From Rubrivivax sp. (lineage in GTDB: Bacteria; Pseudomonadota; Gammaproteobacteria; Burkholderiales; Burkholderiaceae_C): a stretch of DNA of 32,565 bases. The stretch spans positions 1 through 32,565 of the forward strand of contig JAEUPE010000257.1 in the NCBI GenBank assembly GCA_016790435.1. The letters are read 5' to 3'. The notes beneath the pieces were generated by a model. It was not told where the DNA came from. It worked only from the letters and a program-made list of their open reading frames with translations, and ran no database searches. Below are positions 6,248 to 25,169 of the stretch, one piece after another. How positions within the stretch are numbered: position 1 is the stretch's first letter; every line of letters begins with the position of its first letter. The position numbers and the translations under genes were made by a program.

Positions 6248-6913
6248 CTAGGCGGCGAGCGCCTGCCGCATCGCGGCGATCACGGCCTTGTAGTCGGGCT
6301 GCCCGAAGATCGCGCTGCCGGCCACGAAGGTGTCGGCACCCGCGTCGGCCACGCGGCGGATGTTGTCGACCTTGATGCCGCCGTCGACCTCGAGGCGGAT
6401 GTCCCGGCCCGAACCTTCGATGAGGCGGCGCGCCCGCTCCACCTTTCGCAGCGCCGAGTCGATGAAGCTCTGGCCGCCGAAGCCGGGGTTCACGCTCATG
6501 ATGAGCACGAGGTCGACCTTGTCGATCACCCACTCCAGCACGTCCAGTGGCGCCGCCGGGTTGAATACGAGCCCGGCCTGGCAGCCCTCGGCCTTGATGA
6601 GCTGCAACGTGCGGTCGACGTGCGCGCTTGCATCGGGGTGGAAGCTGATCAGGTCCGCCCCCGCCTTGGCGAAGGCGGTCGCCAGCGCATCGACCGGCTG
6701 CACCATCAGGTGCACGTCGATCGGCACCGTGCTGTGCTTGCGCAGCGCCTGGCAGACCATCGGGCCGAAGGTGAGGTTCGGCACGTAGTGGTTGTCCATC
6801 ACGTCGAAGTGCAGCCAGTCGGCGCCGGCGGCAACCACGGCACGAACCTCCTCGCCCAGGCGGGCGAAGTCGGCAGAGAGGAGGCTGGGGGCGATGCGGT
6901 AGGTGCGACTCAT
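6248..6913 (-). CDS. rpe: Ribulose-phosphate 3-epimerase
   Basis: Rpe interconverts D-ribulose 5-phosphate and D-xylulose 5-phosphate in the pentose phosphate pathway and Calvin cycle. The 221-residue TIM-barrel protein has the usual length and all expected active-site residues. These are His35 and Asp37 ([13 protein letters not shown]), His68 (DVHLM) and Asp177 (LEVDGGI), plus the phosphate-binding VNPGFGGQ loop near 141-148. It is likely the housekeeping enzyme, not part of the neighbouring cassette. It has its own -10 element placed for a leaderless transcript, and in Burkholderiales rpe is commonly found beside apaG, which here lies 7.6 kb away on the other side of the catabolic cassette. 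The usual downstream gph-trpE genes are not present. Confidence 0.97.
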
Positions 6914-7016: not shown

Positions 7017-8051
7017 TCAAGGCAGGCTCTCGCGCAGCACAATGCTGATGCGCACCGACTCGACGCCCCCATGGGGACTGCGCCCTTCGCGCAGGTTGGT
7101 GAAAAGGCGCACGGCGTTCAGCAGCAAGGTCTGCGGATGCTGGTTGAGCACTGCGTCCAGTGTGCCGTCGATGAGCAGCGCCCGCGTGTCCGGCGTCAGG
7201 CCGTGCGCGACGAAGACGGTCTGACGCTCGCGGCGGCGCTCCTTCAACGCACGGCCGACACCCTCCGCGCCGCCGCCGATGTTGTAAAGGCCCACGAGGT
7301 CAGGGTGCTGCTTGAGCAGCGCCAGCGCCAGCCGGTAGTTGGTGTCGGCGTCGTCGCGGCCCTCGCGCACGCCCACCACCTTCAGCGCCGGGAACTCATC
7401 CTGCATGAGGCGCAGGAAGCCCATCTCACGCTCCTCGTGGCCGCGGTAGGCGAGCGAGCCCGCGATCATGGCCACCGAGCCCTGGCGCGGGCCGACGAAG
7501 CGGCCGATCAGCATGGCGGCCGTGCGGCCTGCCGCGCGGTTGTCGATGCCGACATAGGCCACGCGCCTCGACTGCGCGAGGTCGGAGATCAACGTCAGCA
7601 CATGCACGCCCTGCGCCGACAACTCGTCCACCGCCTCGCGCACGCTCGGGTGCTCCAGGGCCATGAAGGCCAGCCCCTGCGCCCGGCGGCCGTGGCGGCG
7701 CAACGCCGAGGCCACGCGCGCCGGGTCGAAGCTGTCGATGTAGTGCACGCGGCAGCGCACGTCGAACGGCGCCAGCGTGTCGCCGGCGCCACGGATGCTG
7801 TCGCCGAGCATGCGCAGGTAGCGGTTGGTGCCGGCGGGCAGCAGGAATGCGAGCTCCATCGGCGGCGGGCGCAGGCTTCGCCAGAGCTGCGCGTCGGGCA
7901 GGTACTGCAGCTCGGCCGCCGCCTTGAGCACCCGCTGCGCGGTGGCCGGGCGCACCGGCAGGCGGCCATGCAGGACGCGGTCGACGGTGGCGGTCGAAAC
8001 GCCGGCGGCGAGCGCGATGTCCGGGATGCGGCGGCGCGGAGGCAGGTCCAT
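7017..8051 (-). CDS. LacI-family transcriptional regulator, probable controller of the divergent TRAP/RLP/kinase operon
   Basis: The 344-residue protein starts with a LacI-type helix-turn-helix (RIPDIALAAGVSTATVDRVLHGR, about 8-30). A hinge region and a periplasmic-binding-protein-like sensor domain follow (LEHPSVREAVDELSAQGVHVLTLISD; YVGIDNRAAGRTAAMLIGRF), as in regulators sensing sugars and sugar acids. The ATG at 8051 is preferred; the track of codons also allows a TTG one codon earlier. It is transcribed away from the TRAP receptor gene with 122 bp between starts, the usual layout for a local regulator. That gap holds a perfect 12-bp palindrome and a second inverted repeat. It probably represses the transporter and enzymes until the substrate, or a product of it, binds. 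Confidence 0.93.
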   Translation of the reverse strand: MDLPPRRRIPDIALAAGVSTATVDRVLHGRLPVRPATAQRVLKAAAELQYLPDAQLWRSLRPPPMELAFLLPAGTNRYLRMLGDSIRGAGDTLAPFDVRCRVHYIDSFDPARVASALRRHGRRAQGLAFMALEHPSVREAVDELSAQGVHVLTLISDLAQSRRVAYVGIDNRAAGRTAAMLIGRFVGPRQGSVAMIAGSLAYRGHEEREMGFLRLMQDEFPALKVVGVREGRDDADTNYRLALALLKQHPDLVGLYNIGGGAEGVGRALKERRRERQTVFVAHGLTPDTRALLIDGTLDAVLNQHPQTLLLNAVRLFTNLREGRSPHGGVESVRISIVLRESLP

Positions 8052-8058
8052 CAAAAAA

Positions 8059-8113
8059 CATCAAGGGCAGCAATTGCCGCAGGCCGCATTCGAACTTAAG
8101 GTGCACCTTGATG
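8059..8113. promoter_or_regulatory. Operator region between the LacI-type gene and the TRAP operon
   Basis: AAGGTGCACCTT at 8098-8109 is a perfect 12-bp palindrome. CATCAAGG (8059-8066) and CCTTGATG (8106-8113) form a wider 8-bp inverted repeat, the right arm overlapping the palindrome. A smaller GCAATTGC palindrome is at 8070-8077. A palindrome of this size between a LacI-type gene and its divergent operon is the expected place for the operator. No confident -35/-10 pair was seen. Confidence 0.6.
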
Positions 8114-8173
8114 CAAGCCGGCGCATCAGATTCCATCAGCGCTCATCGCACAAGCCGGCCAGGAGACAAAGAC

Positions 8174-9202
8174 ATGCTGACCCACCGCATCGCCCTTCCC
8201 CGGCGTGGCCTGCTGGCGCTGGCCGCGGCCTGTGCCTTCGGCGCCCTGGGCACCTTCGCGCCGCCCGCGCAGGCGCAGAAGTCCCTCGAGTGGCGCTACG
8301 GCCACATGAACCCGCCCGGCAGCGCCGCCGGCATGCAGGCGCAGTGGCTGGCCGAGGAGATCGCCAAGCGCACGGCCGGCAGCATCAAGGTCACCGTCTA
8401 CCCCTCTTCGCAGCTGGGCAAGCTGCAGGAGCTGGCGGAGGCCGTCTCCACCGGCACCATCGCGCTGTCGCACAACACGGCCGGCGGCATCGGCTCGCTG
8501 CACGAGCCTTTCGCCGCCCTGGACACGCCCTACCTCTACCGCGACGTCGACCACCTGATGAAGGTGATGGACGTCGGCTCGCCGGTCATGAAGCAGCTCA
8601 ACGAAGGCCTCGTCAAGGACGCCGGCGTGCGTGTGCTCTACGCCTATTACTTCGGCACGCGCCACCTCACGTCGAACAAGGCAATCCGGCAGCCGGCGGA
8701 CCTCTCGGGCATGAAGATCCGCGCCATCCCCTTCCCGATCTACATGACCACGGTCGAGGCCATGGGCGCGGTGCCGGTGCCGGTGGACTGGTCCGAGGTG
8801 CCCACGGCGCTGGCCACCGGCAAGGTCAACGGGCAGGAGAACCCGGTCAACGTCGTGCTCTCGTCCAAGCTCTACGAGACGCAGTCGCACCTGATGCAGA
8901 CCGGGCACATCATGAACGCCCAGGTCATCGTCATCAACGAGCGCGCCTGGCAGGGCTTGTCCGCCGCGCAGCGCGAGCAGATCACCGCCTCCGCCGCCGA
9001 GGTGCGCCGCCGCGCCACCGAGATGGTGCGGGGCCAGGAAGCGAGCGAGACGGCCGAACTGAAGAAGCTCAAGATGACAGTCATCGGCCCCGCCGAGGGC
9101 CTGGACGTCGCCGCGTTCCGCACCAACGTGCGCAAGGCCGTGGACCTGAAGTTCGGTGCCAAGTTCGGCGAGCTCTACAAGGCCATCGAAGCGGTGCGGT
9201 GA
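8174..9202 (+). CDS. TRAP transporter solute-binding receptor (DctP/SiaP family)
   Basis: This is the periplasmic receptor of a tripartite ATP-independent transporter, which binds an organic acid and delivers it to the membrane subunits. The 342-residue precursor has a signal peptide (LPRRGLLALAAACAF, likely cut after AQA near residue 35; the double Arg also allows Tat export). The mature family pattern follows, including the carboxylate-binding Arg in SGMKIRAIPFP and the ALATGKVNGQENPV segment. The ATG at 8174 has an AGGAGA site 7 bp upstream, so the longer upstream-open frame is not used. It is first in the operon controlled by the LacI-type regulator. Since the operon encodes an acid-sugar kinase and a RuBisCO-like protein, the ligand is probably a sugar acid. 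Confidence 0.94.
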   Translation: MLTHRIALPRRGLLALAAACAFGALGTFAPPAQAQKSLEWRYGHMNPPGSAAGMQAQWLAEEIAKRTAGSIKVTVYPSSQLGKLQELAEAVSTGTIALSHNTAGGIGSLHEPFAALDTPYLYRDVDHLMKVMDVGSPVMKQLNEGLVKDAGVRVLYAYYFGTRHLTSNKAIRQPADLSGMKIRAIPFPIYMTTVEAMGAVPVPVDWSEVPTALATGKVNGQENPVNVVLSSKLYETQSHLMQTGHIMNAQVIVINERAWQGLSAAQREQITASAAEVRRRATEMVRGQEASETAELKKLKMTVIGPAEGLDVAAFRTNVRKAVDLKFGAKFGELYKAIEAVR

Positions 9203-9822
9203 TGGACGCGCCGGCCCCAAGCTCCGGCGCAGCGCCCGTCCCGCAGCCCAGCCTGCACAACGGCCCCGAAACGGGGGCCCACGTGGGCCCGAGCGTGCCC
9301 GCCGGGCCGCTGCGCCCGCTGCTCCTGCCGCTGTGCCGGGCCTTCGAGTGGGCAGCGATGGCCCTGCTCGTCGGCACCACGACCGCCATCATGGTCGAGG
9401 TGTTCGCCCGCGGCCTGTTCAACCTCGGCCTGCCGGGCGCCGGCGAGCTGGCCAAATATGCCGGCCTCGGGCTCATCTTCCTTACCGTGCCGCTGTTGCT
9501 CGCACGGGACGAACACGTCAAGGTCGACATGCTGTTCGCGCGCAGCCGTGGCCTGCCACGGCGCGTGCTGGCGCTCTTCAACGAGCTCGCCACGCTCGCC
9601 TTCTGCGTGCTGTTCCTGGTGTCGTGCTGGTGGTTCATGCAGCGCGCCGCCCGCTTCTCGACGCCTGCGCTGGGCATTCCCAACCTCGTGTACTACCTGC
9701 CGGCCATCGCCGGCATGGTGCTGACCACCCTGGTGGCACTCGACCGCGTCATCGGCGTCGTGCGCGGGCGCGCAGCGCCGCGAGATCAGGCCGGCGCCAG
9801 CAGCATCGGCGTGGGCGCCTGA
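9202..9822 (+). CDS. TRAP transporter small membrane subunit (DctQ family)
   Basis: DctQ is the small membrane subunit that partners the large TRAP subunit for sodium-driven uptake. The 206-residue protein has a non-membrane N-terminal extension of about 45 residues rich in Pro and Gly, then four hydrophobic segments at about 50-72, 80-100, 125-150 and 165-185. It carries the family's conserved KVDMLFAR sequence after helix 2. The ATG at 9202 shares its first base with the last base of the receptor stop codon, so the two are translationally coupled. The large subunit starts two bases after its stop. Confidence 0.92.
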   Translation: MDAPAPSSGAAPVPQPSLHNGPETGAHVGPSVPAGPLRPLLLPLCRAFEWAAMALLVGTTTAIMVEVFARGLFNLGLPGAGELAKYAGLGLIFLTVPLLLARDEHVKVDMLFARSRGLPRRVLALFNELATLAFCVLFLVSCWWFMQRAARFSTPALGIPNLVYYLPAIAGMVLTTLVALDRVIGVVRGRAAPRDQAGASSIGVGA

Positions 9823-9824
9823 CC

Positions 9825-11108
9825 ATGCTGAGCGCCACCGCCATCGGCCTGTTCTTCCTGCTGCTGCTCGCCGGCACGCCGGTGGCCATCGCGCTCGGTC
9901 TCGGCTCGGCAGCGGCGCTGTGGTGGTTCGACATGCGGCTCGCGGTGATCGCGCAGCGCATCGTCAACTCGCTCGACTCGACCACGCTGCTGGCCGTGCC
10001 GATGTTCATCTTCGCCGCGGCGCTGTTCAACGCCACCGGCCTGACGGCGCAACTCTTCGACTTCATCCGCATGGTCATCGGCCGCATCCGTGGCGGCCTG
10101 GGCTACGTCACGGTGCTCACGCACCTCGTGTTCTCGGGCGTCTCCGGCGCCGCGCTCGCCGACATCGGCGCTCTGGGCAAGATCCAGATCGACATGATGC
10201 GCGAGCAGGGCTACCACGACCGCTTCTCCACCGGCATCTGCATGGCCGCGGCGACGCTCGGGCCGATCTTCCCGCCGTCGATCCCGCTCGTCATCTTCGC
10301 GATGGCGGCCGAGATCTCACCGGTGAAGGTGCTCATCGCCGGCATCATCCCCTCGCTCGTCATTGCGCTCTTCCTGATGGGCATGGTGTGGTGGGTGGCG
10401 CGCCGGTCGGGCCTGCCGCGCGACACCATCAGCGTCACGCGCGGCGAGTTCGCCCGGCGGCTGTGGTTCGCCATGCCCGCGCTGCTGGCGCCTTTCGTGC
10501 TCATCGGCGGCATCCTCTTTGGCCTCTTCGGCGAGACCGAGGCGGCGGCGGTCACCGTGGTCTACGCGCTGCTCGCCGGGCTCTTCTTCTACCGCGCGCT
10601 CACTTGGCGCCGCTACGTCGATGCGCTGCGCGAGACAGTGCGCTCCACCGCCGGCGTCATGTTCATCGTCGGTGCTGCCGCCCTATTCGCCTGGGTGCTG
10701 ACGATCGACCAGGTGCCCACCAGGGCGGCCGAGCTGCTGCTGGCGCTCTCGCGCGACCCGTGGGTGCTGCTGATCGTCGTCAACGTGCTGCTGCTCATCG
10801 TCGGCATGATCATGGAGACCATTGCCGCCATCCTGATCCTCACGCCGATCATCGTGCCGGCCCTCGCCGCCGCGGGTGTTGACCCGGTGCACCTCGCCGT
10901 GGTGGTGGTGCTCAACCTGATGATCGGCCTGCTCACGCCGCCGGTGGGCATGAGCCTGTACATGGTCGCGAGCGTGGCCGGCATGCCCGTGGAGAGCGTG
11001 ATCCGTGCGGCGCTGCCGTGGATCGCCTGCCTGCTGCTCTCGCTCGTGGCGGTGACCTTCGTGCCGGCCGCTTCGACCTGGCTGCCCGCCTTGATGCTCC
11101 GGCCCTGA
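9825..11108 (+). CDS. TRAP transporter large permease subunit (DctM family)
   Basis: This is the transport channel subunit of the TRAP system in the inner membrane. The 427-residue protein is almost entirely hydrophobic with about 12 helices. It has family landmarks such as AVPMFIFAAALFNATGL, FSGVSGAALADIGALG, the re-entrant GPIFPPSIPLVIF loop and GLLTPPVGMSLY. Length is usual. The ATG at 9825 is fixed by the adjacent end of the small subunit. Together with 8174-9822 it makes a complete P-Q-M set. It ends 37 bp before the VOC gene and is likely on the same transcript. Confidence 0.95.
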   Translation: MLSATAIGLFFLLLLAGTPVAIALGLGSAAALWWFDMRLAVIAQRIVNSLDSTTLLAVPMFIFAAALFNATGLTAQLFDFIRMVIGRIRGGLGYVTVLTHLVFSGVSGAALADIGALGKIQIDMMREQGYHDRFSTGICMAAATLGPIFPPSIPLVIFAMAAEISPVKVLIAGIIPSLVIALFLMGMVWWVARRSGLPRDTISVTRGEFARRLWFAMPALLAPFVLIGGILFGLFGETEAAAVTVVYALLAGLFFYRALTWRRYVDALRETVRSTAGVMFIVGAAALFAWVLTIDQVPTRAAELLLALSRDPWVLLIVVNVLLLIVGMIMETIAAILILTPIIVPALAAAGVDPVHLAVVVVLNLMIGLLTPPVGMSLYMVASVAGMPVESVIRAALPWIACLLLSLVAVTFVPAASTWLPALMLRP

Positions 11109-11145
11109 TGCTCCCGATGCTCCAACCCCGACCCAGAGAACCACG

Positions 11146-11700
11146 ATGAGCCGTCACTTCGGAGAGATCCGCCAGGTCGCTTACCTGGTGCCCGACATCG
11201 AGGCCGCCATGGACCACTGGGCGAACGTGCTCGGTGTCGGCCCCTGGTACTACAACCCGAAGGTGCCGATCCGCAACTACCACTACCGCGGCGAGCGCCA
11301 CGAGCCGCACAACTCGGTGGCGCTGGCCAACGCCGGCGCGCTGCAGATCGAGCTGCTGCAGCCGCGCAACGACGTGCCCTCGATGTACCGGGACTTCCTG
11401 CGCGCCGGCCAGCAGGGCGTGCAGCACGTGGCCTACTGGACCGAGAGTTTCGACGCCGACCTCGCCCGCGCCGAGGCGGCGGGCTTCCGCGTCTGCATGG
11501 GCGGCGAGGTCGGCGAAAATGGCCGCTTCGTCTACTTCGAAGACCGCATGGCCGACGGGTTGCCGCTGCCGGGTACCACCATCGAACTGTCGGAGGTGGC
11601 GGGGCCGAAGGGGCGGCTCTTCAAGCTCATCCGCGAGGCCGCCGTCGATTGGGACGGCCACGACCCTGTGCGGCCCTTCCCCGACCTGACCAAGCTGTGA
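11146..11700 (+). CDS. VOC-family (glyoxalase/methylmalonyl-CoA epimerase-like) metalloprotein of unknown reaction
   Basis: The 184-residue protein has two VOC beta-alpha-beta-beta-beta modules: IRQVAYLVPDIEAAMDHWANVLG, and GVQHVAYWTESFDADLARAEAAG. VOC enzymes use a divalent metal for isomerisation, epimerisation, lyase or dioxygenase chemistry. By position the likely metal ligands are Gln10 (replacing the usual His), Glu69, His94 and Glu147. The ligand set differs from methylmalonyl-CoA epimerase, and no CoA-related genes are nearby. It is encoded between the TRAP permease and the RuBisCO-like protein with short gaps, so it should act on the imported compound or an intermediate. An epimerase, isomerase or lactone-handling step would fit, but none can be proved. 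The start has a weak AGAGAA site. Confidence 0.85.
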   Translation: MSRHFGEIRQVAYLVPDIEAAMDHWANVLGVGPWYYNPKVPIRNYHYRGERHEPHNSVALANAGALQIELLQPRNDVPSMYRDFLRAGQQGVQHVAYWTESFDADLARAEAAGFRVCMGGEVGENGRFVYFEDRMADGLPLPGTTIELSEVAGPKGRLFKLIREAAVDWDGHDPVRPFPDLTKL

Positions 11701-11766
11701 GCGCACGCCGCCAGTCTCGACCCGCCCGACACTCACTTCGTTGCGCGCCGCGCTGAGGCTGACCGC

Positions 11767-13074
11767 ATGACCCTGGACACCCTGCGCGCCACCTACCTGA
11801 TCGAGACACCGCTCGACCCGGTCCGCGTCGCCGAGGTGCTGGCCGGCGAGCAGAGCAGCGGCACCTTCGTCCGCGTCGCCGGCGAGACCGATGCGCTGCG
11901 CGCGCGCAGCCGCGCCAGCGTGAGCTCGCTGCACGAGTTGGAGCCGCTGCCCGCGCCCAGCCTGCCCAGCGCCTGGCTACAGCGGCAGCGCGCCGCGGGC
12001 CCGACTGGCCTGAATGGCCAGACGGGCCCGTTCCGCCGCGCCCGCATCGAGGTCGACTTCCCGCTCGCCAACATCGGCCGCAACCTGCCGACGCTCGCCG
12101 CAACCGTGGCCGGCAACCTCTTCGACCTCGGCGAGACCACCGGCCTGCGCCTCGAGCGCCTGCAACTGCCGCCCACCTTGCGCGCGCGCTTCGAGCGGCC
12201 GCGCCACGGCGTCGCCGGCACGCGCGCCGCCGCCGGCGTGGCCGAAGGGCCGCTGGTCGGCACCATCATCAAGCCCAACGTCGGCCTCTCGGCCGCCGAG
12301 ACGGGCGCGCTCGTCGCCGAGCTGTGCCGCGCCGGTGTCGACTTCATCAAGGACGACGAGTGCTGTGGCGACCCCGAGCACGCGCCCATCGCCGATCGCA
12401 TCCGCGCCGTCATGGCGGCGATCCGTTCGCACCGCGAGGCGACGGGCAAGACGGTGATCATGGCCGTCAACATCAGCGACGAACACGACGCCATGCTGCG
12501 CCATGCCGAGCTGCTGCAGCGCGAAGGCGGCTGCTGTGCCATGGTGAGCCTCAATTGGACCGGCCACGCCTCGGTGCAGGCGCTGCGCCGCCACACCGAC
12601 CTGCAGCTGCACGGCCACCGCAACGGCTTCGGCATGTGGGCGCGCCACCCGGCGCTCGGCATCGCCTTCCAGCCCTATGCGGCGATGTGGCGCCTGGCCG
12701 GCGTGGACCACATGCACGTGCACGGCCTGGCGGGCAAGTTCGCGCAGGACGACGACGAGGTGCGTGAATCGGCGCGCGATTGCCTCACGCCACTGGCCGA
12801 CCCGGCTGACACCGCCGACACCGTGATGCCGGCCTTCAGCTCCGGCCAGTGGGCGGGCACGCTGCCGATGACCCTCGCAGCCGTGCCCAGCGGCGATCTG
12901 CTGTTCATGTGCGGTGGCGGCATCCTTGCCCACCCGATGGGCACTGCCGCGGGCGTGACCAGCCTGCGCCAAGCGTGGGCCGCATGGCGTGCCGGAGAGT
13001 CGCTGCAGGCCGCTGCCGCGAACGCGCCCGAACTGCGGGCCGCGCTGGCCTTCTTCGGCCCCGCCCCTCACTGA
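11767..13074 (+). CDS. RuBisCO-like protein (form IV large-chain homologue), probable acid-sugar-phosphate decarboxylase/hydrolase
   Basis: The 435-residue protein is a RuBisCO large-chain homologue with an N-terminal alpha/beta domain and a TIM barrel. Alignment by eye to plant RuBisCO places equivalents as follows: Lys169 (K175, IIKP), Lys195/Asp197/Glu198 (the carbamylated-Lys and Mg site, FIKDDE), His284-Arg285 (H294-R295), His317 (H327), Lys324 (loop 6 K334) and GGG 383-385 (phosphate loop). Lys177 is replaced by Asn171 and the H298 region is altered, which argues against true carboxylation. Characterised relatives OiaX and OiaT act on 3-oxo-isoapionate 4-phosphate in D-apiose catabolism, by decarboxylation or hydrolysis. 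The adjacent DUF1537 kinase would supply such a phosphorylated substrate. No RuBisCO small subunit or phosphoribulokinase is in view. The exact substrate is unproven. Confidence 0.9.
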   Translation: MTLDTLRATYLIETPLDPVRVAEVLAGEQSSGTFVRVAGETDALRARSRASVSSLHELEPLPAPSLPSAWLQRQRAAGPTGLNGQTGPFRRARIEVDFPLANIGRNLPTLAATVAGNLFDLGETTGLRLERLQLPPTLRARFERPRHGVAGTRAAAGVAEGPLVGTIIKPNVGLSAAETGALVAELCRAGVDFIKDDECCGDPEHAPIADRIRAVMAAIRSHREATGKTVIMAVNISDEHDAMLRHAELLQREGGCCAMVSLNWTGHASVQALRRHTDLQLHGHRNGFGMWARHPALGIAFQPYAAMWRLAGVDHMHVHGLAGKFAQDDDEVRESARDCLTPLADPADTADTVMPAFSSGQWAGTLPMTLAAVPSGDLLFMCGGGILAHPMGTAAGVTSLRQAWAAWRAGESLQAAAANAPELRAALAFFGPAPH

Positions 13075-13087
13075 CCGGGCGGCCGCC

Positions 13088-14500
13088 ATGCTGCGCCTGG
13101 CCTGGTACGGCGACGACTTCACCGGCGCCTCCGACACGCTGGCCACGGTGGCCGGCGCCGGGCTGCGCACCCTGCTCTTCACCGGCGTGCCCACGGCGAT
13201 GCAACTCGCCCGGGCTGGCGAGCTCGACGCGCTGGGCGTCGCCGGCACCGCGCGCGCTCTCGCGCCGGCGGCGATGCGCGAGGAACTTGCTCCCGTAGCA
13301 GCCTGGTTCGCGGCGCTGAACGCGCCGGTCACGCACTACAAGTGCTGCTCCACGTTCGACAGCGCGCCGCACGTCGGCAACCTGGCCGTGGGCCTGCAGG
13401 CGCTGCGCACGCCCGCTCACCAGGCTTGGGTGCCAGTGATCGGTGGCCAGCCGAGCCTCGGGCGCTTCTGCGCCTTCGCCACGCTCTTTGCCAGCGCTTC
13501 GGCCGGTGGCGAGGTGCATCGCATCGACCGCCACCCGACCATGAGCCGCCACCCTGTGACGCCGATGCACGAGGCCGACCTGCGCCGGCATCTGGCGGCC
13601 CAGGGGCTGACGGACCTGGCGCACATCGACCTGCGCCGGCTCGACGACGCGAGCGATGCCGCATTGGACGCGGCGCTGGACTCGCTGCTCGACGCAGCGG
13701 CGAACCCGGGCTCGCCACCCGCTGCCGGCATCCCGAAGGCAGGGCCGCGGCAGTTCGACCACGAGGGACACGCAGGTTGGCCCCCGCTTGCCACGCCAGT
13801 TGCAACGCTCTTCGACGTCACTCGCCACGAACATCTCGCGCGCATCGGCAGGCTGCTCTGGCAACGCGCGCGGCGCCGGCCGCTGCTGGCGCTCGGCGCC
13901 AGCAGTGTCGCGCAGGCGCTCGTCGCGCAGTGGCAGGCCGAGGGCCTCGGGCCCGCGGCACAGGTTCGCGTGGCGCCGGCCGCCGGGCCGGTGTTCGTGC
14001 TGGTCGGCAGCCTGTCGCCGGTCAGCGCGGCACAGGCCGACCACGCGGCCGCCTTCTTCGAGACGATCGAGGTGCGCGTCCCGTTGCTCATCGACAGCGA
14101 GGCCTACCTCCAGAACCTGGCCGACCAGTGCGCCGCGCTGTTGCGCCAGGGCCGCCCGGTGCTGGCGCGCACCTCCGCGCCCAGTGGCGGCTCCACGCCG
14201 CCGATGGATGTGGCCAGAACCTGCGGCCGCCTGCTCGCCCGCGTTCTCGACGGCGCGCCGCACGTGCGGCGCATCGGCGTGGCCGGCGGCGACACCTCGA
14301 GCTTTGCGCTGCGCGAGCTGAAGCCCTGGGCGCTCCGTTGGGCCGGCCCGCTGGTCCCCGGTCTGGCGCTGCTGCGGCTGTGCTCCGACGAGCCACGCCA
14401 TGAGGGTCTCGAAATGATCCTCAAGGGCGGCCAGATCGGTGGCCCGGATGCCTTCGAGCGCTTGCTGAAGGGCCCCGCCCGTCTAGACCTTGTCCGCTGA
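13088..14500 (+). CDS. DUF1537 four-carbon acid sugar kinase family protein (OtnK/OiaK-like)
   Basis: The 470-residue protein starts with the family's substrate-site signature (WYGDDFTGASDTLATVAGAG) and has HYKCCSTFDSAPHVGN near 80-95. It ends with the nucleotide-binding part (ARTSAPSGG and GGDTSSFALREL). DUF1537 proteins phosphorylate acid sugars such as 3-oxo-tetronates, D-threonate or 3-oxo-isoapionate with ATP. The ATG at 13088 is 13 bp after the RuBisCO-like gene; the open frame extends upstream to 12989, but that would overlap 86 bp of the previous gene with no homology. Pairing with a RuBisCO-like protein, and not with the aldolase and isomerase seen in Otn operons, points to the OiaK/OiaX type of pathway. 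The stop codon overlaps the -35 element of apaG. Confidence 0.92.
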   Translation: MLRLAWYGDDFTGASDTLATVAGAGLRTLLFTGVPTAMQLARAGELDALGVAGTARALAPAAMREELAPVAAWFAALNAPVTHYKCCSTFDSAPHVGNLAVGLQALRTPAHQAWVPVIGGQPSLGRFCAFATLFASASAGGEVHRIDRHPTMSRHPVTPMHEADLRRHLAAQGLTDLAHIDLRRLDDASDAALDAALDSLLDAAANPGSPPAAGIPKAGPRQFDHEGHAGWPPLATPVATLFDVTRHEHLARIGRLLWQRARRRPLLALGASSVAQALVAQWQAEGLGPAAQVRVAPAAGPVFVLVGSLSPVSAAQADHAAAFFETIEVRVPLLIDSEAYLQNLADQCAALLRQGRPVLARTSAPSGGSTPPMDVARTCGRLLARVLDGAPHVRRIGVAGGDTSSFALRELKPWALRWAGPLVPGLALLRLCSDEPRHEGLEMILKGGQIGGPDAFERLLKGPARLDLVR

Positions 14501-14532: not shown

Positions 14533-14949
14533 ATGCCCGCATCCTCGAAGAAGGCCGTTCCCGCCAACGAAGGCGCCGCGCTGGCGCAGTTCACCTGCGA
14601 GGTGCGGGTGCAGTTCCTGCCCGAACAGTCCGAGCCGCCCGAAGGCCCGTACGCCTTCGCCTACACGGTGACGATCCGCAATACCGGCGAGGTGACGGCA
14701 CAGCTCGTGGCGCGCCACTGGACCATCACCAATGCCGAGGGCCGGCAGGAAGAGGTGCGCGGCCTGGCCGTCGTGGGCAAGCAGCCGGTGCTCAAGCCTG
14801 GCGAGCAGTTCGAGTACACGAGCTGGACGCGCATCGATACGCCGCACGGCCAGATGCGCGGCACCTATCTGTGCGTGAGCGAGGAAGCGCGCGCCTTCGA
14901 TGCCGAGGTGCCCGAGTTCCAGCTCGTCTATCCGGGGCTGCTGCAGTAG
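14533..14949 (+). CDS. apaG: ApaG protein (Co2+/Mg2+ efflux-associated ApaG/DUF525 domain)
   Basis: ApaG is a small soluble beta-sandwich (fibronectin type III-like, DUF525) protein conserved in proteobacteria. It is linked genetically to Co2+ resistance and Mg2+ efflux, with no settled biochemical role. The 138-residue product shows family hallmarks: YAFAYTVTIRNTGEVTAQL, RHWTITNAEGRQEEVRG, VVGKQPVLKPGEQFEYTSW and GQMRGTYLCV. The N-terminus has a 17-residue extension before the fold. In Burkholderiales apaG is commonly divergent from and adjacent to rpe; here the cassette separates them. It has its own promoter with a leaderless layout, so it need not depend on the upstream operon. Confidence 0.96.
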   Translation: MPASSKKAVPANEGAALAQFTCEVRVQFLPEQSEPPEGPYAFAYTVTIRNTGEVTAQLVARHWTITNAEGRQEEVRGLAVVGKQPVLKPGEQFEYTSWTRIDTPHGQMRGTYLCVSEEARAFDAEVPEFQLVYPGLLQ

Positions 14950-15146: not shown

Positions 15147-16328
15147 TCAGCGCCGGGTCGCGCGCATCGCGTGCACATTGGCCGCGAAGCCCGTCGGCGG
15201 CCGGGTGGCATCGGGCACCGCGCGACCGCGCGCCGCCTTCGCTTCGGCCAGCGCGGCGCCGGCTCGCTCGATCGTCTGCTCGATCGACTCGCCGGCATGG
15301 CGTTCCGCGAGCCCGGCCGACAACGTGACGGTGAGCGTGTGCATGCCGTGCACGATGCGCAAGGCGGCCACGCGCTGCTGCAGCCGCTCGAGGCCACCGC
15401 GCACGAGCGCGGCGCGCGTGTCGGGCAACATGAGCATGAACTCCTCGCCGCCCCAGCGCGCCAGCACGTCGGAGGCACGCACCTGTTGCAGCGCCTCCTG
15501 CGCCACGGCGCGCAGCACGGCGTCGCCCACCGGGTAGCCGTGCGCGTCGTTGATGGCGCCGAGGTGGTCGATGTCGAGCTTGGCGAGGCAGAACGTCTGG
15601 CCCGAGCGCGTGCAACGCTGGTGCTCGTGCTCGATCAGCTCCTGCATGTGGCGGCGGTTGATCAGGCCCGTGAGCTCGTCGCGGATGACGAGGTCGCGGA
15701 TCTGCGACAACGCCTCGGCCAGCTCGTGCCGGCGGCGGCGCAGCCGCTCGCGCATGCGAGAGAGGCGCACGGCCAGCACCGAGACCGTCGGCACCATCGT
15801 GGCGACCATCAGGAAGTGGCCGAACTCCACCGACGGCGGATAACGCACCGGGTCCAGCCAGCACATGGCCCCGGCGGTGACGGCGAAGAGCGCCACCGCA
15901 TAGGCGCTCACCCACATCATGTGCATCGGCGTGACGACGAACATGCCGAACATCAGGACGACCATGAAGATCGGGAACACACTGCCGCGCGCCGGGCCGA
16001 GCATGGTGTAGGCCATGGCCGCGCAGCTGAGCGCGAACACCATCTGCGGCACGGTCAGCGAGGGGTCCTCGCGCCGGCGCGACCAGCCGCTGCGGATGAG
16101 CGCGAACAGCACGACCATGCCGGCGAGCGAGAAGATCGTCCACAGCGCCACCGGGGCGGCGCGCGCCACGCCGGCCCAGACGAAGAACTGCATTGCCACC
16201 ACGCTGACGCCCACCATCGCCATCGCCAGCGCCGCCTGCGCGAGGCGGATGCGCTGCACCGGTTCGTCGGTGAACAGCAGGCTCTGCAGGCGTTTGACCA
16301 GTGCGGGCAGTTCGACGGGTTCGCTCAT
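15147..16328 (-). CDS. Membrane-bound GGDEF protein (diguanylate cyclase)
   Basis: The protein is predicted to make cyclic di-GMP at the inner membrane. The 393-residue product has about six hydrophobic helices in the first 200 residues with short loops, resembling a membrane sensor of unknown ligand. A short helical linker and a GGDEF domain follow. The active-site loop is RWGGEEF, and RASD five residues upstream fits the RxxD inhibitory site. Some positions depart from consensus: DIDHLGAIND has Leu-Gly where Phe-Lys is usual, HGYPVGD has Tyr for His, and the C-terminal DxALYxAK element reads AGAALAEAK. The ATG at 16328 is chosen because the frame upstream is not membrane-like. No EAL or HD-GYP domain is attached. 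Confidence 0.9.
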   Translation of the reverse strand: MSEPVELPALVKRLQSLLFTDEPVQRIRLAQAALAMAMVGVSVVAMQFFVWAGVARAAPVALWTIFSLAGMVVLFALIRSGWSRRREDPSLTVPQMVFALSCAAMAYTMLGPARGSVFPIFMVVLMFGMFVVTPMHMMWVSAYAVALFAVTAGAMCWLDPVRYPPSVEFGHFLMVATMVPTVSVLAVRLSRMRERLRRRRHELAEALSQIRDLVIRDELTGLINRRHMQELIEHEHQRCTRSGQTFCLAKLDIDHLGAINDAHGYPVGDAVLRAVAQEALQQVRASDVLARWGGEEFMLMLPDTRAALVRGGLERLQQRVAALRIVHGMHTLTVTLSAGLAERHAGESIEQTIERAGAALAEAKAARGRAVPDATRPPTGFAANVHAMRATRR

Positions 16329-21890: not shown

Positions 21891-23078
21891 ATGTCCGACC
21901 TCACCAAGGCCGAGCAGGCCAAGCCAGCGCGTCGAAGCTTTCTCAACGTGGCCGTGGCCGGTGCCGGAGCGGCGGCGCTCGCTGCCTGCGGCAAGAAGGA
22001 AGCCGCGGCACCTGCGGCCACGGGCGCGGCTCCCGCCGTTAGCGCGGCACCTTCGACGGTGGTGCTGAAGATGCAAGGTGCCTGGGGCGCCAAGGACATC
22101 TTCAACGAGATGGCCGAGGAGTACGTCAAGCGCGTCAACGAAATGGCCGGCGGCCGCGTGCGCATCGACTACCTCGTGGCCGGCGCGGTGGTCAAGCCCT
22201 TCGAAGTGATGGACGCCACCAGCAAGGGCGTGCTCGATGCCTGCCACGGCGTGCCGGTGTACTGGTACGGCAAGAGCAAGGTGGCTTCGCTGTTCGGCTC
22301 GGGGCCCATCAACGGCTGCGACGCGCCGCAGACGCTGGCCTGGATCTACCGCGGCGGCGGCCTCGAGCTCTACCAGGAGCTGCTGCAGAAGATCAACCTC
22401 GACGTCGTCGGCTACTTCGCGACGCCGATGCCGACGCAGCCGCTCGGCTGGTTCAAGAAGCCGATCAAGGACGCCAAGGAACTGCAGGGCCTCAAGTACC
22501 GCACGGTGGGCCTGGCGGCCGACCTCTTCCAGCAGATGGGTGCCAAGGTCACGCAGCTGCCCGGCGGCGAGATCATGCCGGCCCTCGAGAAGGGCGTCAT
22601 CGATGCCTTCGAGTTCAACAATCCGACCTCGGACATGCGCTTCGGCGCCCAGGACGTGATCAAGAACTACATGATGGGCAGCTACCACCAGGCGATGGAG
22701 TTCTTCGAGATCGCCTTCAACAAGAAGAAGCACGACTCGCTGCCCAAGGACGTGCAGGCCATCCTGCGTTACGCGGTGGAAGCCACGTCGTCGTCGAACT
22801 GGTGGACGGCGATGGACAACTATTCGCGCGACCTGCAGGAGCTGGTGAACAAGCACAAGGTCAACGTCATCCGCACGCCCAAGTCGGTGATGGTCGAGCA
22901 GCTCAAGGCCTGGGACGTGGTGGCCAAGAAGCTCGGCGACGAGGATCCCTTCTTCAAGAAGGTGGTCGACTCGCAGCTGGCCTGGGCCAAGCGAGTGGCC
23001 TACTACATGTTCGTCAACGAGGCCGACTACCGCCTCGGCTACGAGCATGTGCACAAGGTGAAGCTGCCGACGGCCTGA
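21891..23078 (+). CDS. TRAP transporter receptor, Tat-exported lipoprotein (2-oxoacid/TakP-like subgroup)
   Basis: The 395-residue receptor binds an organic acid for the TRAP system encoded downstream. The N-terminus has a twin-arginine motif (ARRSFLNVAVAGAG) and then a lipobox LAAC, so it should be exported folded and lipidated at Cys33. A short Ala/Pro linker precedes the receptor domain. It has YWYGKSKVASLFGSGPING, FATPMPTQPLGWFKK and LKYRTVGLAADLFQQMG with the carboxylate-binding Arg. The subgroup with the MPTQPLGWF signature includes the 2-oxoacid receptor TakP, so keto acids or lactate are plausible ligands. AGGAGA lies 4 bp before the ATG. A strong intrinsic terminator separates it from the membrane subunit genes. 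Confidence 0.92.
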   Translation: MSDLTKAEQAKPARRSFLNVAVAGAGAAALAACGKKEAAAPAATGAAPAVSAAPSTVVLKMQGAWGAKDIFNEMAEEYVKRVNEMAGGRVRIDYLVAGAVVKPFEVMDATSKGVLDACHGVPVYWYGKSKVASLFGSGPINGCDAPQTLAWIYRGGGLELYQELLQKINLDVVGYFATPMPTQPLGWFKKPIKDAKELQGLKYRTVGLAADLFQQMGAKVTQLPGGEIMPALEKGVIDAFEFNNPTSDMRFGAQDVIKNYMMGSYHQAMEFFEIAFNKKKHDSLPKDVQAILRYAVEATSSSNWWTAMDNYSRDLQELVNKHKVNVIRTPKSVMVEQLKAWDVVAKKLGDEDPFFKKVVDSQLAWAKRVAYYMFVNEADYRLGYEHVHKVKLPTA

Positions 23079-23128
23079 ACGCCGGCCGCGGCCGCCGTCA
23101 CTTCGGTGGCGGCCTCAGGCGACCAAAA

Positions 23129-23152
23129 GGGGCGGCCGGTCCGCCCCTTTTT
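23129..23152 (+). terminator. Intrinsic terminator between TRAP receptor and permease genes
   Basis: GGGGCGG, a 5-nt loop and CCGCCCC are followed directly by five T; four A precede the stem. It lies 50 bp after the receptor stop and 54 bp before the small permease gene. It probably gives partial termination, so more receptor than permease is made. Confidence 0.85.
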
Positions 23153-23205
23153 GCCGCCCAGCGAAACGACCCACTTCCGCGCCGGCCAGCGCCGGCCTCC
23201 ACACC

Positions 23206-23826
23206 TTGAACAAGATCATCCTCGCCATCGATCAGCTCAGCAAGACGGTGGGGCACGCCTTCGCGTGGTGCATCGTCATCCTCACGCTGGGCACCTGCTA
23301 CGAGGTCTTCGTGCGCTACGCGCTGAACGACCCCACGAGCTGGGCTTTCGACCTGAGCTACCTGATGTACGGCGCCGTCTTCTACATGGCCGGCGCCTAT
23401 ACGCTCTCGCGCGGCGGTCACGTGCGCGCTGACATGTTCTATCGCAAGTGGCCCGTGCGCACGCAGGCCGTCGTCGAGCTGGTCTTGTACGTGCTGTTCT
23501 TCTTCCCGGGCATGCTGGCGCTCATCATCGCCGGCGGCAACTACGGACTCGAGTCGATGCGCATCCGCGAGGTGAGCGTCAACAGCCCGGCCGGTGTGCC
23601 GATCTGGCCGCTGAAGATGATGATCCAGTTCGGCGCGGGCCTCATCGCGCTGCAGGGAGTGGCCGAGGTGCTGCGCTGCGTCGTCTGCCTGCGCGAGGGT
23701 GAGTGGCCGGCGCGCCTGCACGACGTGGAAGAGCTCGAGCAGCAGATCCTCGAGGAGCATGCGCGCAAGGCGGCCGCGGCCGCTGGCACGCTCGAGCCGA
23801 CACAGACCCAAGGAGCCGCACGATGA
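23206..23826 (+). CDS. TRAP transporter small membrane subunit (DctQ family)
   Basis: The 206-residue protein has four hydrophobic segments (about 14-34, 47-66, 88-110, 130-155), the family's YEVFVRYALN motif after helix 1 and GGHVRADMFY after helix 2. The tail from about 170 is hydrophilic and helical (VEELEQQILEEHARKAAAA), a longer C-terminal extension than in many DctQ proteins. The start is TTG at 23206, because no ATG or GTG precedes the first helix; there is no clear ribosome site. The stop overlaps the DctM start (ATGA). It works with the receptor at 21891 and the large subunit that follows. Confidence 0.88.
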   Translation: MNKIILAIDQLSKTVGHAFAWCIVILTLGTCYEVFVRYALNDPTSWAFDLSYLMYGAVFYMAGAYTLSRGGHVRADMFYRKWPVRTQAVVELVLYVLFFFPGMLALIIAGGNYGLESMRIREVSVNSPAGVPIWPLKMMIQFGAGLIALQGVAEVLRCVVCLREGEWPARLHDVEELEQQILEEHARKAAAAAGTLEPTQTQGAAR

Positions 23827-25169
23827 GCGATCCCGCCGTCGCCCTCGTGATGATGGGCATCCTGGTCTTCGTCATCTGCATCGGCTTCCCGGTCGCATTC
23901 ACGTTGATGGCGCTGGGCGTCGGCTTCGGCTACTACGCCTACTTCCAGGACGGCCAGTACTTCTTCGACAACCGTGTCTTCTACCTGCTGACGCAGAACA
24001 CCTTCACGGTGCTCAACAACGACGCGCTGGTCTCGATCCCGCTCTTCCTGCTGATGGGCTACCTCGTCGAGCGCGCCAACATCCTCAGCGACCTGTTCAA
24101 GAGCCTGCAGATCGCGCTCAAGCACCTTCCGGGATCGCTGGCGGTGGCCACGCTCGCCACCTGCGCGCTCTTCGCCACCGCCACCGGCATCGTCGGCGCC
24201 GTGGTCACGCTGATGGGGCTGCTGGCGATGCCGCAGATGATGAGGGCCGGTTACGACTCGCGGCTCGCCGCGGGTGTCATCTGCGCCGGCGGCTGCCTGG
24301 GCATCCTGATCCCGCCGTCGATCATGCTCATCGTCTACGGTGCCATGGCGGGCCTTTCGGTGGTGAAGCTCTATGCCGCCGCCTTCGTGCCCGGCTTCTT
24401 CCTCGCCGGCATGTACATCGTCTACGTCGTCGTGCTGGCGATGGTCAAGCCCGAGCGTGCGCCGCCGCTGCCGAAGGAAGAGGGCAACGTGCCTTTCGGC
24501 GAAGTGGTGGTGATGCTGTTCAAGTCGTTCGTGCCGCTGGCGCTGCTGATCCTGTCCGTGCTCGGCGCCATCATGTTCGGCATCGCAACGCCCACCGAGG
24601 CCGCCGCCGTGGGCGCGCTCGGCGCCGCCATCCTGGCCGCCGCCTACCGCGCGCTCACCTGGCAGGCACTGCGCGAGTCGGTCTTCCTCACGGCGCGCAC
24701 GTCGGCCATGGTGTGCTGGCTGTTCGTCGGCTCGGCGACGTTCGCGTCGATCTTCGCCTACCTCGGCGGCAACCAGATCATCAAGGAGTTCGTGCTCGAC
24801 CTGAACCTGAACGCGGTGACGTTCATGCTGCTCGCACAGGTGATCATCTTCATCCTGGGCTGGCCGCTGGAGTGGACCGAGATCATCATCATCTTCGTGC
24901 CGATCTTCCTGCCGATGCTCTCGCATTTCGGCATCGACCCGATCCTCTTCGGCGTGCTGATCGCGCTCAACCTGCAGACGGCCTTCCTCTCGCCACCGAT
25001 GGCGATGAGCGCGTACTACCTGAAAGGCGTCAGTCCGCCTTCGGTGCTGCTGACGCAGATCTTCAGCGGCTGCATGCCCTTCGTCTACGTGGTGCTGGTG
25101 ACGATGGTCATCGTCTACGTCTTCCCGGGCATCGCCTTGTGGCTGCCCAACGCGCTGTACGGTCGTTGA
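23823..25169 (+). CDS. TRAP transporter large permease subunit (DctM family)
   Basis: This is the channel subunit of the second TRAP system. The 448-residue protein has about 12 hydrophobic helices. The landmarks are ALVSIPLFLLMGYLVERANI, TGIVGAVVTLMGLLAMPQM, the CLGILIPPSIMLIVYG loop and LQTAFLSPPMAMSAYYLKG. The longer DctM form with an extended loop of about 30 polar residues near 215 fits the subgroup found with TakP-type receptors. The ATG at 23823 overlaps the DctQ stop. It ends 15 bp before the amidase, which is probably co-transcribed. Confidence 0.94.
   Translation: MSDPAVALVMMGILVFVICIGFPVAFTLMALGVGFGYYAYFQDGQYFFDNRVFYLLTQNTFTVLNNDALVSIPLFLLMGYLVERANILSDLFKSLQIALKHLPGSLAVATLATCALFATATGIVGAVVTLMGLLAMPQMMRAGYDSRLAAGVICAGGCLGILIPPSIMLIVYGAMAGLSVVKLYAAAFVPGFFLAGMYIVYVVVLAMVKPERAPPLPKEEGNVPFGEVVVMLFKSFVPLALLILSVLGAIMFGIATPTEAAAVGALGAAILAAAYRALTWQALRESVFLTARTSAMVCWLFVGSATFASIFAYLGGNQIIKEFVLDLNLNAVTFMLLAQVIIFILGWPLEWTEIIIIFVPIFLPMLSHFGIDPILFGVLIALNLQTAFLSPPMAMSAYYLKGVSPPSVLLTQIFSGCMPFVYVVLVTMVIVYVFPGIALWLPNALYGR

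Follow-up and report, generated by a model that had tools for sequence, protein, structure and literature searches.

A widespread cassette of LacI-type regulator, importer, VOC-fold protein, RuBisCO-like protein and DUF1537 kinase: a coherent, apparently unassigned variant of acid-sugar pathways

Catabolic pathways for D-apiose and D-apionate in which the kinase OiaK works with one of two RuBisCO-like proteins (RLPs), OiaX or OiaT (Carter et al. 2018), are touched on in a passage of PMC6302742, and a title in the reference list of PMC10176493 points to an RLP in a D-hamamelose pathway (Kim et al. 2018). The subject here is a cassette at positions 7017 to 14,500 of a 32,565-nucleotide stretch of DNA from Rubrivivax sp. 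(contig JAEUPE010000257.1 of GenBank assembly GCA_016790435.1), the whole of which is termed the window. The assembly has 302 contigs, this one among them, and totals 5.39 Mb; as it is 81% complete, absences from this genome count for little. A divergent gene for a LacI-type regulator is followed by six co-directional genes, for the three parts of a tripartite ATP-independent periplasmic (TRAP) importer, a vicinal oxygen chelate (VOC) protein, an RLP and a DUF1537 kinase, spaced by -1, 2, 37, 66 and 13 bp; the sequence-only reading had picked out just this arrangement, and it is present with gaps of -1 to 66 bp. The cassette is a widespread, coherent variant of the kinase/RLP acid-sugar pathways, and apparently an unassigned one. 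Our preferred explanation, held tentatively and with confidence a little short of even, is that it is a self-contained catabolic unit of importer, VOC isomerase, kinase and cleaving RLP and, as part of the same explanation, a sister of the D-apiose/D-apionate module and not a member of it.

How near to that module does the cassette stand? Both have a DUF1537 kinase and an RLP of the same superfamily branch with the RuBisCO metal and enediolate residues kept, and the earlier supposition that the cassette follows the kinase/RLP logic of D-apiose catabolism is to that extent borne out. However, the window RLP (11767-13074, plus strand; PF00016, 215.4 bits) scores 391.7 bits with the OiaX model NF042437, and the kinase (13088-14500, plus strand), which the above cut-off matches to both PF07005 and PF17042 place in the DUF1537 acid-sugar kinase family, scores 282.5 bits with the OiaK model NF042436, the cut-off being 700 in each case; OiaX itself is found above cut-off, at 772-786 bits, in six of the 398 genomes of a phylum-wide sample. 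With these scores and with separate clades for RLP and kinase, the tight clustering with OiaK and OiaX that the sequence-only reading had named as the mark of a known pathway is not seen, and membership of OiaX or OiaK was rejected on scores and trees alike. A second DUF1537 (PF07005) kinase is encoded elsewhere in the window's genome (G000:C300:10356-11063).

The RLP tree (maximum likelihood, 95 rows) contains a chosen, thinned subset of the VOC-linked loci from the genome_contigs scan, and leaves aside the copies L033, L034, L035, L039, L228, L230 and L231 and pieces shorter than 380 aa (the G082 cassette RLP). In it 45 VOC-linked loci, PDB entry 3nwr and L071, a locus to which we return, form a 47-row clade with 100/100 support. 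Forty-one of the 45 were VOC-linked at the outset and L237-L240 proved to be VOC cassettes from their fetched surroundings, and 3nwr was assigned to the VOC group by our own choice, without gene context. The main ApnO-linked clade (21 rows) and the OiaX clade (six rows) each have 100/100 support. The kinase tree (71 rows, thinned likewise, FastTree) tells the same kind of story, with 36 VOC-linked rows and L071 in one clade apart from the OiaX and ApnO-linked ones. Of the PDB entries, 3nwr, titled ‘A rubisco-like protein’, matches the window RLP best (614 bits); in the tree it is sister to L091, a cassette RLP from Paraburkholderia (branch lengths 0.02 and 0.016). As it falls inside the VOC clade, a structure of this type of RLP exists. 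The sole paper with the term 3NWR in an open-access full-text search was an unrelated one.

The cassette recurs far beyond the window. Among 299 family genomes searched, 118 have RLP-superfamily matches, an RLP of at least 63% identity is found in only 14 (the window's own included), others are at 45-52%, and the remaining superfamily matches, true RuBisCO included, do not exceed 34%. The set of related loci consists of the best 80 of 295 confirmed relatives from the genome_contigs scan with the close RLP set; counts over these 80 were made by tblastn, and genes outside the window were otherwise called with a codon-model script. The hosts are Burkholderiales, Azospirillum, several Rhizobiales and a few others. 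The VOC gene lies directly 5′ of the RLP gene in 79/80 and the kinase gene directly 3′ of it in 79/80, with both flanking it in 78, so the order of genes is more than chance; a divergent LacI gene is present in 77. L071 is without VOC and LacI, and the other misses, of the kinase in L078 and of LacI in L113 and L146, are at contig ends. Across the order, the VOC protein was matched in 6 of 300 genomes, its own included: four places, at 61-73% identity, are inside such cassettes (one of them, L167, without a LacI gene of this family) and two, at 51-53%, are outside. Distant VOC homologues outside RLP cassettes are those of L168 and L169 (53% and 51% identical to the window VOC), one of which adjoins a gene for a short-chain dehydrogenase/reductase (SDR); the surroundings of the two gave no hint of function. 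Downstream of the kinase, a same-strand gene within 200 bp is present in 19 of 85 VOC loci, mostly belonging to different clusters, and a scan of ten of these 19 gave no pathway hint.

The importer varies. The window has a TRAP system of what is termed here the first type, with the solute-binding protein DctP (8174-9202, plus strand; PF03480, 204.1 bits; TIGR00787 above cut-off), the small permease DctQ (9202-9822, plus strand) and the large permease DctM (9825-11108, plus strand; PF06808, 373.5 bits; TIGR00786 above cut-off). DctQ is a codon-model call between DctP and DctM whose identity comes from its position and its clustering with same-position open reading frames in L045, L072 and L073. 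Only three of the 80 loci have this window-type TRAP; 67 have a second type, its receptor about 25% identical to the first, eight have an ATP-binding cassette (ABC) importer with a family-3 (amino-acid-type) receptor, and in two none was seen (L071, and L146 at a contig end). Three importer types thus serve one VOC-RLP-kinase core. A further TRAP-like set lies at 22059-25169 of the window (339, 206 and 448 aa), and its large permease clusters with DctM.

The partner enzymes of the known module are missing from the cassette and a VOC protein stands in their place, as the sequence-only reading held: unlike the D-apiose/D-apionate module, it has neither ApnO, ApnL nor a sugar dehydrogenase. ApnO-linked loci carry GntR or LysR regulators where the cassette has LacI, and the importers differ as well. 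With one ApnO query, tblastn gave no match in the 80 related stretches. A wider test took 51 genomes with this type of RLP (43 from the set of 80 and eight more, the genome of L071 with no VOC among them; completeness is given for only 8). PF16896, which we take to be the ApnO family, an assumption with which the locus context in Paraburkholderia graminis agrees, has no match in 39/51 and is present in 12; ApnL has no match in 44/51. The ApnL model NF049900 is not among the NCBIfam matches of the scanned cassette proteins, the window's own genome not having been searched with it as a whole. Could the missing enzymes be encoded elsewhere, as was also suggested? In the window's own genome they might be, as one ApnO-family gene is present on another contig; in the set at large, 39 genomes show no PF16896 match. 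That gene (L155, G000:C220) follows an SDR gene and the C-terminal part of a transketolase, and neither RLP nor kinase was called on its 7.7 kb contig. P. graminis C4D1M has both systems, the cassette (L107) and, on another contig, a D-apiose locus with OiaK (857.5 bits) and ApnL (821.5 bits), each above cut-off, together with another RLP and a protein of the ApnO family. A VOC cassette with window-type TRAP in G082 (L045, G082:C22:520500-540400) stands divergently beside a D-apiose-type locus, whose genes are homologous to those of P. graminis and include an ApnO-family member, transporter genes and an ApnL-like protein that, at 524 bits, falls short of the cut-off; this cassette has no LacI gene in the stretch analysed, and its RLP is apparently split into two reading frames.

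Two loci link the VOC protein to ApnO. L250 is an apparent natural exchange in which a LacI-TRAP-VOC part is coupled to an RLP and kinase of ApnO type. Its LacI, DctP, DctM and VOC are 70%, 81%, 78% and 87% identical to those of cassette members. However, its RLP is matched best by an ApnO-linked one (65%, versus 55-57% for VOC-linked) as is its kinase (49% versus 41%); both fall outside the VOC clade in their trees, the kinase pairing with an ApnO-linked kinase with support 90. L200 is apparently the same place as L250. The converse is L071 (8106-12305), the window's sister and, in the set of 80, its closest relative (88%): at the same site between rpe and apaG it retains just the RLP and kinase genes, at a distance of 226 bp from rpe, with LacI, importer and VOC absent there. 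The L071 genome has an ApnO-family gene elsewhere, beside an SDR gene, as does the genome of the window. Both the exchange and the loss suggest that VOC and ApnO supply compounds of one kind, a shared INTERMEDIATE; their products would be alike in being a 2-hydroxy-3-oxo acid that feeds the kinase/RLP pair.

What might the RLP do with it? Positions are in spinach numbering, mapped via the genome's own RuBisCO. The genome has a true RuBisCO large subunit (L001, G000:C108), next to which a protein of 146 aa is probably the small subunit; an rpe-like gene is there too. K175, K201, D203, E204, H294, R295 and K334 are retained in 46/46 VOC-clade rows, 3nwr included, and E60, N123, H327 and S379 in the same 46/46 and in 21/21 main ApnO-linked rows. 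OiaX rows (6/6) are altered at the last four positions, to D, G, Q and then G (5) or C (1), and the window RLP, with E, N, H and S there, has none of the OiaX changes. At position 177 the VOC clade has N, the ApnO-linked clade S, OiaX A and RuBisCO K. Because the RuBisCO residues lost by OiaX are kept, the window RLP most likely cleaves in the fashion of OiaT, whose products are phosphoglycerate and a hydroxy acid; the residues suggest such cleavage rather than plain decarboxylation. Two other RLP operons contain a pyruvate kinase gene, L047, which belongs to a sister clade, and L252, the RLP of which (L218) is closer to the ApnO-linked rows; this fits a phosphoglycerate product, as does the enolase gene in the vicinity of L046. 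These loci, with L049 and L251, are RLP/kinase loci with SDR genes and in some cases TRAP, with ApnO and VOC not found in the fetched stretches; LysR adjoins the RLP in L047, L049, L251 and L252, and the five possibly represent another uncharacterised pathway.

The VOC-fold protein, the proposed ketol isomerase (11146-11700, plus strand), belongs to its superfamily by a PF13669 match above cut-off (90.8 bits), by fold and by the residues Q10, E69, H94 and E147, which are invariant in 93/93 called homologues, a few loci being counted twice, and each on a strand of the predicted model (pLDDT 92). Its nearest solved folds are 3gm5, a putative methylmalonyl-CoA epimerase, and then true epimerases, HPPD and glyoxalases being weaker. 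A role as methylmalonyl-CoA epimerase was rejected, since the score with TIGR03081 is 29.5 bits against a cut-off of 114.95, though that fold is the closest. Human glyoxalase I has Q/E/H/E as its metal quartet, methylmalonyl-CoA epimerase H/Q/H/E. The cassette protein shares the fold with both and has a candidate metal quartet in Q10/E69/H94/E147, by which it may bind a metal; unlike them, it has no CoA or glutathione context seen at the cassette. Both enzymes shift a proton adjacent to a carbonyl, which makes isomerisation of a hydroxy-carbonyl acid the obvious supposition.

What has been observed, i.e., the gene content and its conservation, the separate clades, the lack of an ApnO-family match in most tested hosts, the residues, the importers and one exchange, allows a pathway to be proposed, of which every reaction, the metal binding and the substrate class are what we infer. 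A carboxylate importer (TRAP here; the other TRAP or the amino-acid-type ABC elsewhere), under the control of the divergent LacI-type repressor, would take up the substrate, and the VOC protein, as a metal-dependent isomerase of glyoxalase I type, would yield a 2-hydroxy-3-oxo acid of the kind made by ApnO. The DUF1537 kinase would then phosphorylate the hydroxyl adjoining the ketone, and the RLP would form the enediolate, with OiaT-like cleavage giving phosphoglycerate plus another small hydroxy acid; no further isomerase or aldolase would then be needed, in keeping with their absence from the cassette.

The imported compound would be acidic and probably a branched-chain sugar or sugar acid, and the earlier suggestion of a different starting acid is judged right as probable. 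The solved receptors nearest the window DctP are 4pdd, 4p9k and 4pdh, which are presumably binders of D-erythronate or pantoate. The receptor of the second TRAP type is nearest 4oan (about 65%), with sialic-acid and sugar-acid receptors next; 4oan was presumably modelled with acetolactate, a 2-hydroxy-3-oxo acid. As direct evidence for the ligand 4oan was rejected, as its own gene is beside other genes. A search of open-access full texts for the ligands of these receptors found nothing, and the receptor model has a pLDDT of only 75. An oxidoreductase gene is missing from most cassettes, which makes it appealing to suppose that the substrate enters as an aldehyde or ketone, and on chemical grounds branched uronic acids, aceric acid for one, would require no redox step. 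Aceric acid is 3-C-carboxy-5-deoxy-xylose and is present in plant rhamnogalacturonan II. It is the prime candidate for a redox-free pathway of a branched uronic acid (3-C-carboxyaldose), with the VOC protein a uronate (aldose-ketose) isomerase of new fold, a specific version that we regard as a long shot. There VOC would turn the aldehyde acid into a 2-hydroxy-3-oxo acid homologous to 3-oxo-isoapionate, the kinase would phosphorylate the new terminal hydroxyl, and the RLP would decarboxylate, recarboxylate and hydrolyse to 3-phosphoglycerate and lactate (glycolate for the apiose homologue). If true, one isomerase, one kinase and one RLP would suffice, and that is the content of the cassette.

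Several points weigh against the preferred explanation, that of a self-contained unit with isomerase and cleaving RLP. An SDR gene between LacI and DctP in 8/80 related loci, and likewise in L038 and L040, indicates that some hosts may need an oxidation, and in the window's own genome the ApnO-family gene is beside an SDR gene. The exchange and the loss are single cases. The placing of the L250 RLP among ApnO-linked rows has 85/99 support and is not a starred node, and the search for VOC in the L071 genome gave no match, an empty answer of a kind that proves little. In the RLP tree several long branches were flagged, including those of L229 and L232 within the VOC clade and that where OiaX meets L227. 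The RLP departs from RuBisCO at positions 66 (F), 177 (N) and 380 (S or N), and the supposed OiaT-like nature of the ApnO-linked clade outside OiaX comes by elimination. Neither enolase nor pyruvate kinase was noted beside VOC cassettes, no systematic search having been made. With epimerase folds the best VOC matches, an epimerase would also fit, and the gene of 4oan sits in a different setting, not in such a cassette.

Might the cassette be for D-apionate after all? A dehydrogenase, either the SDR of some cassettes or an enzyme from another part of the genome, would give 2-oxo-apionate and VOC would move the hydroxymethyl group, SDR and VOC together replacing ApnO. The SDR genes just mentioned, the G082 cassette beside a D-apiose-type locus, and the indication from L250 and L071 that VOC and ApnO serve RLP/kinase pairs of one kind speak in its favour. 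However, the 44/51 tested genomes with no ApnL match and the 39/51 with no ApnO-family match count against it, as does the retention of both systems by G082 and P. graminis, and no VOC protein is known to us to catalyse such a migration; it is unlikely. A related thought, prompted by the sister RLP clade (L046, L047, L049) with its SDR genes and neither ApnO nor VOC in the fetched stretches, is a pathway of D-hamamelonate (2-C-hydroxymethyl-pentonate) type, akin to that with the D-hamamelose RLP oxygenase. Most VOC cassettes are without a dehydrogenase, and the D-hamamelose pathway is not known to include a VOC protein; it is very unlikely.

Another comparison is with the 3-oxo-tetronate pathway (OtnI, OtnK, OtnC), with which the cassette shares the logic of isomerase, kinase and decarboxylase; the difference is that it has VOC and RLP instead of the OtnI and OtnC folds. 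In a pathway of that type a 2-oxo-tetronate would be taken up or formed, VOC would stand for OtnI and the kinase for OtnK, and the RLP would decarboxylate to dihydroxyacetone phosphate. The kinase does match 3-oxo-tetronate kinase in a secondary way (121 bits against a cut-off of 350), and the presumed erythronate or pantoate binders nearest the window DctP would suit the idea. For both kinase and RLP, however, the 3-oxo-isoapionate models give the higher scores, and L250 points to the branched type; this is quite improbable. Or is the VOC protein accessory, for repair or detoxification of a reactive keto acid, the imported compound being already the 3-oxo acid of the kinase? The retention of RLP and kinase by L071 without VOC is what would be expected, and the presumed acetolactate of 4oan, a relative of the second-type TRAP receptor, would suit it too, but VOC is nearly as constant as RLP across the three importer types, stays where RLP and kinase differ (L250), and the 4oan gene is not in such a cassette; its chances are slim indeed.

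The LacI-type regulator (7017-8051, minus strand; PF00356, 51.4 bits) has a Peripla_BP_4 sugar-binding effector domain (PF13407, 123 bits). In the gap between its gene and DctP, TTAAGGTGCACCTTGA at 8096-8111, with the inner AAGGTGCACCTT a perfect palindrome, is a candidate operator. TGCA-centred imperfect palindromes are present in 11/77 LacI-importer gaps (the window's included) versus a mean of 2.5 in single-base shuffles; as the pattern was picked after the window palindrome had been seen, the evidence for an operator is weak. The left neighbour of the cassette (6248-6913, minus strand) is presumably rpe, a name given from its protein sequence, and the right neighbour (14533-14949, plus strand) is apaG (NF003967 above cut-off). 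Seven relatives of the same genus gave an apaG match, and in six of them the gene adjoins rpe with no cassette in between; in the seventh no rpe was seen within the 1.5 kb examined. The cassette is thus an insertion between two housekeeping genes, and the two were, on that ground, rejected as pathway genes. Further along, at 15147-16328 (minus strand), is a protein with a GGEEF motif, spotted by eye, and probably a diguanylate cyclase.

A search of open-access full texts for OiaX, OiaT, OiaK and D-apionate gave nothing on this cassette among the matches listed. Many of the hosts among Burkholderiales, Azospirillum and Rhizobiales are bacteria of soil or plants, and such recurrence points to an acid that is common in the environment and whose breakdown seems unassigned. 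For the type of RLP solved as 3nwr, the cassette provides a gene setting and a testable role, and its VOC enzyme may do the work of ApnO. OiaX, the ApnO-linked RLPs, the sister clade and the VOC clade form a natural series in which to follow the shift of RuBisCO chemistry between decarboxylation and carbon-carbon cleavage.

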